Shown here: piece by piece, positions 23,107 through 51,639 of the stretch
Numbering within the stretch: position 1 is the first letter of the stretch
Layout of the letters: the number at the start of each line of letters is the position of its first letter
Assembly: GCF_003324485.1 (NCBI RefSeq)
Contig: NZ_QODK01000002.1
Span: forward strand, 372,001 to 436,000
Direction of reading: 5' to 3'
DNA: 64,000 bases
DNA from: Cohaesibacter intestini
Lineage (GTDB): Bacteria > Pseudomonadota > Alphaproteobacteria > Rhizobiales > Cohaesibacteraceae
Made by a program: the position numbers and the translations under genes
The notes under the pieces: generated by a model
What the model was told of the DNA's origin: nothing
What the model saw: only the letters and a program-made list of their open reading frames with translations
The model's database searches: none

Positions 23107-23190
23107 GATTCTCTCTTACGTGAATCAAATCGAATCAGAGTCCAGCAAAAAAGGGCGGCGAAAAATTTCGTCTGTTGATTGCCGTGAATC
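23107..23190. promoter_or_regulatory. GANTC (CcrM-site) cluster upstream of dnaB
   Basis: Five GANTC sites begin at 23107, 23122, 23132, 23138 and 23186, that is five in 84 bases, against about one per 256 expected by chance. GANTC is the target of the cell-cycle methyltransferase CcrM in many alphaproteobacteria. The position 76-159 bases ahead of the replicative helicase gene suggests methylation-sensitive promoter control; this is inference. Confidence 0.55.
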
Positions 23191-30275: not shown

Positions 30276-31028
30276 ATGACTGAAAAACGCCTTGAAGGTC
30301 GCATCGCCGTCGTCACCGGCGCGTCCCGTGGCATCGGCTGGCAGGCCGCCCTCGCGCTCGCGCGCGAAGGAGCCCACATCATTGCCATCGCCAAAACCGT
30401 CGGCGCATTGGAAGAACTCGATGATGCGATTCAGGCCTTCAACGGGTCGACCACTTTGGTGCCGCTTGACCTGATGGATTATGACGGCATCGACCGTCTG
30501 GGCGCGGCCATCTATGAGCGCTGGGGCAAGCTCGACATTCTGCTGGGCAATGCCGGGCTGCTCGGGGCCATCACCCCCCTTGGCCACGCAAACCCGACCA
30601 AGGACTGGGACAAGGTGCTCGGCGTCAACCTGACCGCCAACTGGCGTCTGATCCGCTCAATCGACCCATTGCTGCGCCAGTCCGATGCGGGCCGTGCCCT
30701 GTTCATGAGTTCCAGCGCTGCCCACAAGTGCAAACCCTTTTGGGGCGTCTATAGCGTCTCCAAGGCTGGCCTCGAAGCCATGGTCCGCACCTATGCGGGC
30801 GAGATTGAACAAACCAATCTCAAGGTCAACAGCTTCAATCCCGGCGGCACCCGCACCGGCATGCGTGCCAAGGCAATCCCCGGCGAGGATCCGATGACCG
30901 TGCCACATCCAAGCGAAGTGGTACCTTTCATCGTTGATTGCCTGCTGCCTGACTGCGACAAGAATGGTCAGCTCTATGACTTCCCGACCCGATCTTGGAA
31001 GAGCTATGACCATCCGGTCCTTGGCTGA
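30276..31028 (+). CDS. Short-chain dehydrogenase/reductase
   Basis: A 250-residue Rossmann-fold oxidoreductase: cofactor loop VVTGASRGIG at ~12-21, LGNAG in place of NNAG, and the catalytic SSSAAHKCKPFWGVYSVSKAG (Ser-Tyr-Lys). Substrate is unknown. The C-terminal region (LPDCDKNGQLYDFPTRSWKSYDHPVLG) differs from FabG. It sits 36 bases after purF, an adjacency seen in other Hyphomicrobiales, and a terminator follows it. Confidence 0.88.
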   Translation: MTEKRLEGRIAVVTGASRGIGWQAALALAREGAHIIAIAKTVGALEELDDAIQAFNGSTTLVPLDLMDYDGIDRLGAAIYERWGKLDILLGNAGLLGAITPLGHANPTKDWDKVLGVNLTANWRLIRSIDPLLRQSDAGRALFMSSSAAHKCKPFWGVYSVSKAGLEAMVRTYAGEIEQTNLKVNSFNPGGTRTGMRAKAIPGEDPMTVPHPSEVVPFIVDCLLPDCDKNGQLYDFPTRSWKSYDHPVLG

Positions 31029-31044
31029 CCGAACAGACCAATAT

Positions 31045-31080
31045 AAAGCCCCGGACGGCGTCAGCCATCCGGGGCTTTTT
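31045..31080 (+). terminator. Terminator after the SDR gene
   Basis: 11-bp stem AAAGCCCCGGA / TCCGGGGCTTT with a 12-base loop, ending TTTTTT. It closes the purF-SDR transcript. Confidence 0.88.
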
Positions 31081-31112
31081 TGTTTGAAAACAGGAAACTA
31101 GCAGCAAAAGAA

Positions 31113-31274
31113 GAATCAGATCCTGAGTCTTTCCTCGCCCCCCTGACTCATTTTGTGAACGAGGTGATTCTATGTCTCAATTTGCAGATTCTCCGTCTGA
31201 ACTTGTTGAATCAATTCCTCAATTAGCCCAGAATCAAACTCTCAGCACCACCCCACAAGACTCTGAAAAGACTC
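31113..31274. repeat. Phased GANTC array (nine CcrM sites)
   Basis: Nine GANTC sites begin at 31113, 31125, 31145, 31166, 31187, 31208, 31231, 31259 and 31270. Chance predicts fewer than one in this length. Four consecutive steps are 20, 21, 21 and 21 bases, about two helical turns, so those sites face the same side of the DNA. The array lies between the purF-SDR terminator and the end of the Atm1 gene. Function is unknown. Confidence 0.8.
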
Positions 31275-31288
31275 ACGACAAGAAATAA
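31172..31288 (+). CDS. Candidate 38-residue small protein
   Basis: ATG at 31172 with GAGG seven bases upstream, 38 codons, stop at 31286-31288. The peptide is polar (MSQFADSPSELVES at the start, TTPQDSEKTHDKK at the end), with no motif, TM segment or Cys. The frame coincides with the GANTC array, so the open frame may be a by-product of the repeated DNA sites. I do not recognise it. Confidence 0.25.
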   Translation: MSQFADSPSELVESIPQLAQNQTLSTTPQDSEKTHDKK

Positions 31289-31298
31289 GTTCCATAAC

Positions 31299-33227
31299 TT
31301 ATTCCGCCAATTCCGTCTCTTTTTCCGGAAATGAGCCGTAGCCCTGCCGTTCGAGATCTTCCACCTTGCGCAGCTTCTCTTCGGCTTCGCTTGCTTCGCG
31401 CTGACGATCCCACATCGAGGCGTAAAGACCCTTCTTCTCGAGCAGCTCCCCATGGCGTCCGCGCTCGCGAATACGCCCTGCTTCGAGCACGATGATCTCA
31501 TCGGCATTGATCACCGTGGACAGGCGGTGGGCAATGACAAGGGTCGTGCGATTGTTCGAGACCTCATCAAGGGCCGACTGGATTTCCTGCTCGGTATGGC
31601 TGTCGAGTGCCGAAGTGGCTTCATCAAGCACGAGGATAGGCGGTGCTTTCAGGATGGTTCGAGCAATCGCCACGCGCTGCTTTTCACCGCCCGACAATTT
31701 CAGACCACGCTCGCCCACTTCTGTCTCGAAGCCTTTCGGCAGGCTGGCGATAAAGTCGGACACCTGCGCCATCCGCGCAGCGTCTTCAATCTCGGACCGG
31801 TCCGCATCCGGACGACCATAGCCGATATTGTAAAGAAGCGTTTCGTTGAACAGCACGGTATCCTGCGGCACCATGCCAATTTGGGCGCGGAGGCTATCCT
31901 GCTGCACGGCACGCAAGTCCTGCCCGTCGATGGCAATCGAACCATCGATCACATCATAGAAACGGAACAGCAACCGTGAGATGGTCGACTTGCCTGCCCC
32001 CGACGGCCCGACAATCGCCACCGTCTTGCCCGCAGGCACCTCAAAGCTGATGCCCTTGAGAATGGGTCGATCAGCATCATAATGGAAATGGACATTATCA
32101 AAGCGAATAGACCCGCCATCAACGGCCAAACGCTGCGCATCCGGTTTGTCCTGCACTTCTTCAGGTTGACGCATAAGCTCGAACATGGCTTCGAGATCCA
32201 CCAAGCCTTGCTTGATCTCTCGATGCATCGACCCAAAGAAGTTCAAGGGCGGTGCCAACTGCATCAGGAGCGCATTGATCAGGACAAAGTCGCCGACTGT
32301 ATTCTCACCTTTCATAACGCCCCAGGCCGACAGCCCCATGCACAGCGCCATGCAGGCAGAGAAGATCGCAGCCTGACCAAAATTGAGCCATGCCAGCGAC
32401 ACCCACGTTTTGATCGCCGCCACCTGATAGCCGGCCATTGACTTATCGAACCGGGCCGCTTCAAGCTTCTCGTTGCCGAAATACTTCACGGTCTCGAAAT
32501 TGAGCAGACTGTCGACAGCCTTCGAGGTTGCCTCATTGTCGGACTCGTTCATCTTGCGCCGAATATCGATCCGCCATGCTGTCACCTTGATGGTGAAACC
32601 AACATAGAGCGAGATCATCACAACCACGATGATCACATAGACAAAGTCGAACTCATAGGCGATGACGGCCGCCATCAAGACAAACTGCATCAATGTTGGA
32701 ATGGCATGCAGGATCGTGTGGCGGACCACCCCTTCGATGGCACGGGTGCCGCGTTCAATGATCCGCGACAAAGCCCCGGTCCGCCGCTGCAAATGAAAGC
32801 GCAGAGACAGGCGATGCATGTGCTGGAAGGTTTCATAGGACAGATTACGCACCGCATGTTGCCCCACCCTGGCAAACAGGGCATCGCGCGTCTGATCGAA
32901 GGCGACATTGACAATCCGCCCTGCCCCATAAGCAACAACCAGCAGGATCGGCACGGCAAGCCAAGCGGCCACCCCCACCCCATCAGGCGCGGAAGGATCC
33001 GCCAACTCATCGGTTGCCCATTTGAAGAAATACGGTGTCAAAACGTTGATCACCTTGCCGATCAACAAAGCGGTAATAGCCAGCGCCACGCGGCGTTTCA
33101 GATCAACCCGGTCAGACGGCCAGATATACGGCCAAAGGTTGCGCAGGGTCTGCATTGCGGAAGCCTCTGCATCGACACGGCCGATCTTCTCGGCTGTCGG
33201 GGCAGCGACATTGGGTGTTTGCACCAT
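31299..33227 (-). CDS. Atm1/ABCB7-type ABC exporter
   Basis: A 642-residue half-transporter with an N-terminal six-TM exporter domain (about residues 40-330). The ATPase domain has Walker A VGPSGAGKSTISRLLFRFYD, signature LSGGEKQRVAIARTIL, Walker B PILVLDEATSALD and the H-loop IAHRLSTV. The family exports glutathione-linked compounds from mitochondria or, in Novosphingobium Atm1, protects bacteria from heavy metals. The start at 33227 has AGGA upstream. An ArsR repressor gene lies 73 bases upstream on the same strand, which suggests metal-inducible expression here. Confidence 0.92.
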   Translation of the reverse strand: MVQTPNVAAPTAEKIGRVDAEASAMQTLRNLWPYIWPSDRVDLKRRVALAITALLIGKVINVLTPYFFKWATDELADPSAPDGVGVAAWLAVPILLVVAYGAGRIVNVAFDQTRDALFARVGQHAVRNLSYETFQHMHRLSLRFHLQRRTGALSRIIERGTRAIEGVVRHTILHAIPTLMQFVLMAAVIAYEFDFVYVIIVVVMISLYVGFTIKVTAWRIDIRRKMNESDNEATSKAVDSLLNFETVKYFGNEKLEAARFDKSMAGYQVAAIKTWVSLAWLNFGQAAIFSACMALCMGLSAWGVMKGENTVGDFVLINALLMQLAPPLNFFGSMHREIKQGLVDLEAMFELMRQPEEVQDKPDAQRLAVDGGSIRFDNVHFHYDADRPILKGISFEVPAGKTVAIVGPSGAGKSTISRLLFRFYDVIDGSIAIDGQDLRAVQQDSLRAQIGMVPQDTVLFNETLLYNIGYGRPDADRSEIEDAARMAQVSDFIASLPKGFETEVGERGLKLSGGEKQRVAIARTILKAPPILVLDEATSALDSHTEQEIQSALDEVSNNRTTLVIAHRLSTVINADEIIVLEAGRIRERGRHGELLEKKGLYASMWDRQREASEAEEKLRKVEDLERQGYGSFPEKETELAE

Positions 33228-50339: not shown

Positions 50340-51639
50340 GCAGAAAAGCCGCCAGTTCTGGTCCATGGGACCGTCCGGTCAGGGCCACCCGCAGCGGCAT
50401 GAACAGACCTTTGCCCTTGCGCCCGGTCTCGCTCTTCACCGCATTGGTCCAGGCCTTCCAGGTCGTACCATCCCATGGCTCATTGGGCAGCAATTCCAAG
50501 GCCTTGGCATAAAAATCTGAATCATCTTCTGATCTGGCAACCGCATCTTCGGGCAGGCCTTTGTCAACAATATCCCACCAGCCCTTGGCGTCGGGCAGCC
50601 GCTCGATATTGCCACGCACGGCGAGCCAGAATTCTTCGCCACCCGCAACGCCCAAAGCCGCCAGACGGTCGCTCACCTGTGCATAGCTCTTCTCATGCAG
50701 GATGCGCGCATTGAGGTGCCCAAGGTCGGCCATATCGAATTTCGATGCATTGCGCGACACCTTATCAAGGGCAAACAGATCAGCCAGCGCCTGCATATCA
50801 GCAAGCGGCTGCACCGGTTCGGAGGTTCCGATCAGAACCGCAAAAATCGCGACCGACAAAGGCTCGTAGCCCTCGTCTTTCATGGTGCGGATCGACAGGG
50901 ACCCAAGACGCTTCGACAGTCCTTCGCCGGTCGCACTGGTCAGCAAATTGTGATGGGCAAAGCCCGGAGCCTTGCCGCTAAGCAATTCAAACAGCTGGAT
51001 CTGCACCGCCGTGTTGGTCACATGGTCATCACCGCGGATCACCATGGTGACGCCCATATCAATATCGTCAATCACCGATGGGAGGGTATAAAGGTAAGTG
51101 CCATCTTCGCGGATCAGCACCGGATCGGACACGCTGTCGCATTCAATGCTTTGCTCACCGCGCACACCATCTTGCCAGGCGACGGTCTTGTGATCGAGCA
51201 GGAAGCGCCAATGGGGCCGACGGCCTTCGGCCTCAAAGCCGGCTTTTTGTTCCTCTGTCAGCTCCAAGGCGGCCCGATCATAAACCGGTGGCAAGCCACG
51301 GGCTCGCTGGCGCTTGCGCTTGCGGTCCAGCTCATCAGCTGTCTCATAACAGGGATAAAGCCGTCCCATAGCCTTCAGCTTCTCGGCCACTTCATCATAG
51401 GTCGCCATCCGGGCCGACTGTTTTTCCACCCGGTTAGGCTTGATCCCAAGCCAGTCGAGATCTGCTGCAATACCGTCGGCATATTCCTGCCTGGAGCGTT
51501 CCTGATCGGTGTCATCAAACCGCAGGATGAATTGCCCGCCGCTTTTGACAGCGGTCAGCCAATTGATCAGCGCCGTACGCGCATTGCCAATATGAATATT
51601 GCCCGTCGGAGACGGAGCGAAGCGAACGATTTCAGCCAT
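50299..51639 (-). CDS. gltX: Glutamyl-tRNA synthetase
   Basis: A 446-residue class I synthetase. HIGH-type motif [19 protein letters not shown] is at residues 6-23, and the KMSKS-type motif is [13 protein letters not shown]. The all-helical C-terminal anticodon domain ends [25 protein letters not shown]. Alphaproteobacteria often have two such genes, one charging tRNA-Gln for amidation; which one this is cannot be told. AGGAAG lies upstream of the ATG. nadE ends 39 bases upstream. Confidence 0.94.

Follow-up and report, generated by a model that had tools for sequence, protein, structure and literature searches.

A stretch of 64,000 nucleotides from Cohaesibacter intestini (contig NZ_QODK01000002.1, positions 372,001 to 436,000 of the forward strand; hereafter the window) carries, between two converging genes, an array of nine GANTC sites, the target of the methylase CcrM. 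The array is built from a polar 21-bp unit. Arrays of this unit recur throughout the genus and in other genera of the order Hyphomicrobiales; in the chromosomes checked they are nearly always on a single strand and mostly in the terminus-proximal half, on both arms. These regularities suggest that the arrays are an undescribed chromosome-marking element.

Nine GANTC sites on one face of the helix

The array and its core are laid out as follows:

31113 to 31274, plus strand (the orientation that reads GAATCA...TCTCA): whole array with nine GANTC sites, from the site scan and profile matches
31145 to 31212, plus strand: core of four GANTC sites at exact 21-bp steps (31145, 31166, 31187 and 31208); steps of 21, 21 and 21 bp are also present in the sister species (locus L003)
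G000:C2:403144-403191 and 403196-403222 (contig coordinates), both plus strand: profile matches in the array

The nine sites start at 31113, 31125, 31145, 31166, 31187, 31208, 31231, 31259 and 31270 and thus occupy 162 bp, with steps of 12, 20, 21, 21, 21, 23, 28 and 11 bp. An earlier note on this DNA had reported nine sites in 162 bases with successive steps of 20, 21, 21 and 21, and our scan agrees. The sites lie on one face of the helix: Rayleigh's R is 0.84 at a period of 10.5 bp but only 0.18 for a period of 10 bp and 0.28 for one of 11 bp, and the array of the sister species gives 0.87 at 10.5 bp.

The window as a whole is poor in GANTC (123 sites, whereas 100 dinucleotide shuffles average 297). 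Over 856 kb of the contig, the array is the sole spot with at least six GANTC per 170 bp; elsewhere the count never exceeds five, a value reached at two spots. The earlier note had said that many equal arrays expected by chance would refute it; such arrays are not expected by chance. One of the two five-site spots is in the window itself (23107-23190, five sites in 84 bp with steps of 15, 10, 6 and 48 bp) and lacks the 21-bp phase. At the rate of the contig, the Poisson probability of at least nine sites in 162 bp is 1.2e-11, or about 1e-5 over 856,000 starts. Low GC content does not explain the array, since other 160-bp windows at a GC of 0.40-0.46 contain a mean of 0.52 GANTC and a maximum of 5.

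Pairs of GANTC 21 bp apart number 10 in the 856 kb, where a uniform model predicts about 2.2, an excess to be read knowing that other 5-mers are likewise somewhat high at multiples of three. Three of the ten pairs come from the window array, five from two neighbouring arrays (C2:692.8 and 696.2 kb) and two from elsewhere. A lone unit with a matrix score of 16.6, oriented as the array, is found at 50518-50538 of the window (plus strand, from C2:422518).

A polar 21-bp unit with two conserved halves

The unit is a direct repeat of 21 bp, TGANTCA-N3-TCTCA-N7. Its polarity comes from the second conserved half, TCTCA, located about one helical turn after GANTC. In the window this half reads:

31175 to 31179, plus strand: TCTCA, middle of the unit starting at 31166; all 36 rows of alignment A3 have its final A
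31196 to 31200, plus strand: TCTGA, middle of the unit starting at 31187 (alignment A3)
31217 to 31221, plus strand: CCTCA, middle of the unit starting at 31208

The A thirteen bases past the G is invariant in both units of the 36-row alignment, and the rows were not selected by it; the invariance of GA.TC in the same alignment results from the rows having been selected by these letters. At orthologous loci within the genus, GA.TC letters match in 1752 of 1996 pairwise comparisons (88%), the N position in 78% and other letters in 10743 of 18877 (57%). These counts are pairwise and hence not independent, and since the sites themselves partly anchor the alignments, the contrast is tilted in favour of GA.TC. 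The comparison covers seven locus sets (two belong to a single group); it skips pairs of loci whose identity outside the sites is below 45% or whose sites extend over more than 400 bp.

Recurrence in the genus and the order

Our first probe was the 14-mer GAATCAAACTCTCA (31231 to 31244, plus strand). With one mismatch allowed, it matched 39 times, in 17 of 21 genomes, whereas its reversed control matched 3 times. Spacing played no part in this search, and 21 bp was the most frequent distance between neighbouring sites (17 of 48 pairs within 60 bp) in the 15 loci fetched around the matches. Two profiles were then built, R1 from 12 rows and R2 from 36. Each of them matches 18 of 18 genomes of the genus, with a best R2 E-value of 2.5e-4 or less in each. 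At E<=0.003, R2 matches 113 of the 347 genomes of the order, which fall in 43 of 126 genera and include 14 of Cohaesibacter; these E-values are rough and, at face value, would yield about one genome by chance, and the matches of six other genera, which contributed rows to R2, are so by construction. Matched hosts include Shinella sp. H4-D48 (G367), Rhizobium sp. RCAM05350 (G369), Sinorhizobium meliloti 4H41 (G368) and Pannonibacter (G364, G365). A locus in G033, from another family, has eight GANTC at exact 21-bp steps. Two to six loci per chromosome are detected at E<=0.05.

The loci have mostly unrelated neighbours. Comparing flanking proteins over 2-4 kb loci (blastp, above 110 bits and 38% identity), we found that 18 of 30 loci from other genera share none, 7 share some only among themselves and 5 share some with Cohaesibacter loci, which leaves 25 of 30 with zero flanking proteins in common with the 36 Cohaesibacter loci. 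Among the five is an array in G038, about 1 kb from a homologue of the ABC transporter gene of the window. Some array loci are inherited, as one ortholog group retains both the array and its strand across several families.

Several individual loci deserve description. In the genome of the window, further arrays lie at G000:C2:692833-692900 and 696204-696330; the latter is split around a terminator-like hairpin, beside the 3' end of a gene that we take to be thrS. In one ortholog group spanning several families (L222 at about 1377-1490, L183, L184, L258 and L268), the array is within the coding end of a gene, and that of L222 reads as Glu-Ser pairs. At L195, L196, L194, L123 and L188, a recurrent word, CACTTTAA or TTAAAGTG, was seen by eye beside the arrays.

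One strand per chromosome, in the terminus half

Scanned on both strands with a weight matrix, the 856 kb yielded 11 units on the plus strand and 1 on the minus strand at a score of at least 16 (8 and 1 once the three training-row units are removed); the reversed 856 kb contained 0 such units, compared with 12 in the real sequence. Over 19 single-contig chromosomes, at E<=0.05, 70 of 71 loci are on the majority strand of their own chromosome, and the sole exception (G018) is a spot matching on both strands. This majority strand is plus in eleven chromosomes and minus in eight, which makes an artefact of one-strand searching unlikely. With origins placed by parS, 65 of the 71 loci lie in the terminus half, on both arms. 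As the pooled loci include orthologs from within the genus, the figures from outside it are safer: 34 of 34 loci in the terminus half, at 0.52-0.89 of the origin-to-terminus distance, and 33 of 34 on the majority strand, one of the 34 (G018) having supplied an R2 row.

For the 71-locus count, positions were transcribed by hand, matches within one locus were merged, and seven of the 19 chromosome lengths are rounded values. Matches with E above 0.05 were dropped beforehand, as were chromosomes in several contigs or then without a length and the single-hit G084 and G196; the chromosomes dropped include G000, G002, G005, G007-G010, G015-G017, G031, G107, G174, G207, G279, G311, G349, G364, G365 and G368. 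G013, G076, G367 and G369 are each the main contig of an assembly with several contigs or replicons. A cluster at oriC or parS was rejected, the counted loci being at least 0.37 of the origin-to-terminus distance from parS. A few weak model matches, such as G003:2554684 (E 0.22), do lie less than 4 kb from parS, with E-values above the threshold.

We located the terminus independently in six genomes through the strand switch of FtsK-orienting polar sequences (KOPS, motif GGGNAGGG), using 20-kb samples. The switch falls between samples at 1.80 and 1.97 Mb in G367, 0.10 and 0.37 in G003, 0.45 and 0.60 in G369, 2.00 and 2.10 in G349, 1.50 and 1.60 in G038, and 0.75 and 0.85 in G362, with single samples defying the trend, as at 3.02 Mb in G367 (3 to 0). 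In G003, GC skew roughly agrees with this terminus, and the arms differ in skew in samples L197-L216 (about -0.06 against about +0.01). KOPS reverse at the terminus in 6 of 6 genomes, while the 25 array loci at E<=0.05, split 10 and 15 between the two sides, keep their strand. We had initially expected a KOPS-like polarity following the replication strand, and rejected it because the arrays do not reverse at the terminus. Because the motif is richer in C than in G, composition would tend to place it on different strands in the two arms; no such pattern is seen in the 71 loci.

Among the 22 chromosomes that have two or more loci at E<=0.05 (the 19 chromosomes plus G107, G279 and G349), 21 have a majority array strand opposite to that of the parS-adjacent mnmG gene. 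G006 is the sole chromosome with arrays on the mnmG strand. Its arrays are all parallel and their positions are shifted as if the origin segment were inverted; an inversion around the origin would explain this case. Since 25 of 30 loci from other genera share no flanking protein with the Cohaesibacter loci, the parallel orientation is not simply that of one inherited set of places.

The array in the window: conservation and neighbourhood

The nearest relative (G012) retains eight of the nine sites, one with an altered N, as well as the 21-bp phase. Taking the window as reference, 34 of 36 GA.TC letters are identical in the sister species, compared with 81 of 117 other array letters; with the sister as reference, the counts are 32 of 32 and 84 of 121. 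In 16 other members of the genus the flanking genes are retained and the junction has 0-5 GANTC without any 21-bp run, three of the 16 showing weak model matches there (E 0.098 to 0.26). The long array at this junction is thus confined to two species. The earlier note had named loss in close relatives with retained flanking genes as the outcome that would go against it: the nearest relative keeps the array and these 16 do not, but they harbour arrays elsewhere in their genomes, so that the idea survives the loss at the junction.

The neighbouring features are:

30276 to 31028, plus strand: gene for an oxidoreductase of the SDR family (best model YciK, under its cut-off), ending before the array
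31048 to 31081, plus strand: hairpin with a T run, resembling a terminator, downstream of the SDR gene, seen by eye
31299 to 33227, minus strand: gene for an ABC half-transporter, converging on the array; ABC exporters and ATPases make up the 25 models shown, all under cut-off

The name Atm1 given earlier to the last gene holds as far as an ABC half-transporter, each of the models shown scoring under its cut-off. The array had also been described as lying outside any obvious promoter, which fits, as the 3' ends of both flanking genes face it. Right after the stop of the ABC gene (about 31290-31299), the sequence GTTCCATAA is retained in several GANTC-poor members of the genus. In Rfam, the segment 30900-31500 gave 13 matches up to E=1 and none above the gathering score, and a known RNA family was rejected on this basis. 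Heptad-repeat (coiled-coil) coding of the 21-bp unit was judged by eye and rejected, the frames of either strand hitting stops in the window array.

A polar mark on the terminus half?

What could these arrays do? Helical phasing, polarity and conservation argue for a protein binding the units side by side, and we infer that a dedicated protein exists. With 21-bp units stacked on one helical face, this putative protein would load cooperatively. The earlier note's suggestion of a protein on several same-face sites appears well supported by the 10.5-bp phase, the second half-element, conservation in the sister species and recurrence. Mostly unrelated neighbours and the location in the terminus half point to a role at the level of the chromosome. 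From the sequence patterns, we see an evenly balanced case for the array being one of a small set of polar binding sites that mark or organise the terminus-proximal half in many Hyphomicrobiales. Their role may then lie in terminus positioning, segregation or the sensing of replication completion rather than in the regulation of neighbouring genes. Binding is putatively sensitive to methylation by CcrM, because GANTC is the conserved core and the two halves of the unit differ. CcrM is reported to be conserved in most Alphaproteobacteria (PMC11514494) and is presumably active in this genome.

Some observations weigh against such a mark. At E<=0.003, 234 of the 347 genomes of the order have no R2 match, and at the window junction itself the 21-bp run is limited to the window species and its sister. 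Six of the 37 loci in the genus narrowly miss the terminus half, at 0.37-0.49 (G006 accounts for three), and most of the 71 loci are at 0.5-0.9 of the origin-to-terminus distance, not at the terminus itself, unlike the matS sites of enteric bacteria.

A possible but clearly weaker reading is that of a methylation-blind terminus organiser resembling MatP or ZapT, in which a protein links arrays with one another or with the divisome and the parallel orientation is simply inherited. It accounts for loci in the terminus half on both arms, and Caulobacter ZapT is reported to bind about ten sites, mostly terminus-proximal (PMC7188993). Some inheritance is certain, given the ortholog group that keeps array and strand over several families. 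Inherited orientation alone is strained, however, by the loci of other genera that share no flanking proteins with Cohaesibacter and are yet parallel; ZapT sites are described as mostly intragenic (PMC7188993), and GA.TC letters are kept more often than the N between them (88% against 78%).

More speculatively, and in our opinion rather doubtfully, the polar mark may act as a strand-identity code, in which a reader protein would treat the termini of the old-Watson and old-Crick sisters differently. Replication would leave one sister methylated on the 'top' strand at every array and the other on the 'bottom' strand, a difference that would last until CcrM acts late in the cycle and that would suit asymmetrically dividing bacteria. 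Such a code needs a fixed absolute polarity and could not be written with leading-strand polarity. Hemimethylation of a polar unit is perhaps the simplest use we see for absolute polarity, as it is sisters, not replichores, that are told apart. E. coli MukBEF offers a precedent for nonrandom segregation of sisters (PMC8379921).

The arrays, being polar, enriched toward the terminus and mostly untied to particular genes, could also be roadblocks or loading sites for a fork or translocase, in the manner of Tus/Ter, KOPS or AIMS (architecture-imparting sequences). This is unlikely: those three motifs reverse between replichores, the arrays of six genomes do not, and a one-way fork block would stop just one replichore.

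Less likely still is local transcriptional control through GANTC by GcrA, MucR or another regulator. CcrM/GcrA action and the occlusion of GANTC by MucR are reported in Alphaproteobacteria (PMC5172544; PMC3667746), and the conserved array L129 sits between divergent genes. Four arrays of the window genome (window, C2:692.8 kb, C2:696.2 kb and L196), however, lie between converging frames, the ortholog group described above has its array inside a coding end, and gene regulation gives no reason to expect a single strand per chromosome. A promoter element of the CcrM/GcrA type does not match the window locus either, where both neighbours end at the array, a statement made without a dedicated promoter scan.

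A neutral tandem repeat born of slippage would explain why the same junction has from 0 to 9 sites across species; this is very improbable and already disfavoured, as orthologous arrays hold GA.TC above its surroundings and the unit, phase and strand are common to loci without shared flanking genes. We give hardly any credence to a coding origin, whereby GANTC would arise by chance from Asp/Glu-Ser pairs in the 38-residue open reading frame 31172-31288: the frame is open, with a plausible ribosome-binding site by eye, but was rejected since the sister species lacks the start and has a one-base alignment gap within the array, whereas GANTC positions are kept.

Such arrays are not described in the literature that we searched, consisting of openly readable papers, mostly in abstract form. 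If the terminus-half mark is real, these Alphaproteobacteria mark that half of the chromosome by means of CcrM sites, with consequences for terminus placement without MatP, for the part of CcrM in genome maintenance and for whether sister chromosomes can be told apart. As array positions can be predicted from sequence, published methylomes and binding data can put them to the test.

Comparison with known systems

The plain density of GANTC does not follow the terminus pattern of the arrays, as it is reported to rise strongly around the origin in four orders including Rhizobiales, in counts of single sites (PMC9836097). Two systems resemble the arrays in their architecture. The GATC clusters bound by SeqA are also clustered, helix-phased sites of adenine methylation; the arrays differ in their methylase motif, in their asymmetric two-half unit and in occupying the terminus half instead of the origin. 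The RctB iterons of Vibrio chromosome 2 are likewise helically phased direct repeats with an adenine-methylation site, while the arrays are on the main chromosome, distant from the origin and scattered over several loci.

Other systems resemble them in location. As with matS, the sites are restricted to the terminus part of the chromosome and spread over both arms: this holds for 65 of the 71 loci, and in six genomes they flank the KOPS switch. The matS site is short, near-palindromic and non-polar; the arrays are polar, phased and endowed with methylation sites. MatP is reported from enteric bacteria only (PMC7188993). ZapT is annotated in the MerR family (PMC7188993). Its sites in Caulobacter are, like the arrays, terminus-proximal in an alphaproteobacterium; unlike the arrays, they are mostly inside open reading frames and have no consensus motif reported there (PMC7188993).

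Are the arrays, then, another member of the class of polar chromosomal motifs? KOPS and AIMS are polar and enriched toward the terminus, and the arrays share this enrichment, though without a peak at the terminus itself. The orientation of KOPS and AIMS tracks the leading strand and so switches at the terminus; that of the arrays does not, as seen at 25 loci in six genomes. Ter sites reverse between replichores. To our knowledge, no other chromosomal motif keeps a single absolute strand on both arms and across the terminus; the polar motifs known to us follow the replichore. The reversal of AIMS between replichores is documented (PMC5993296). It is their absolute polarity through the terminus that separates the arrays from KOPS, AIMS and Ter.
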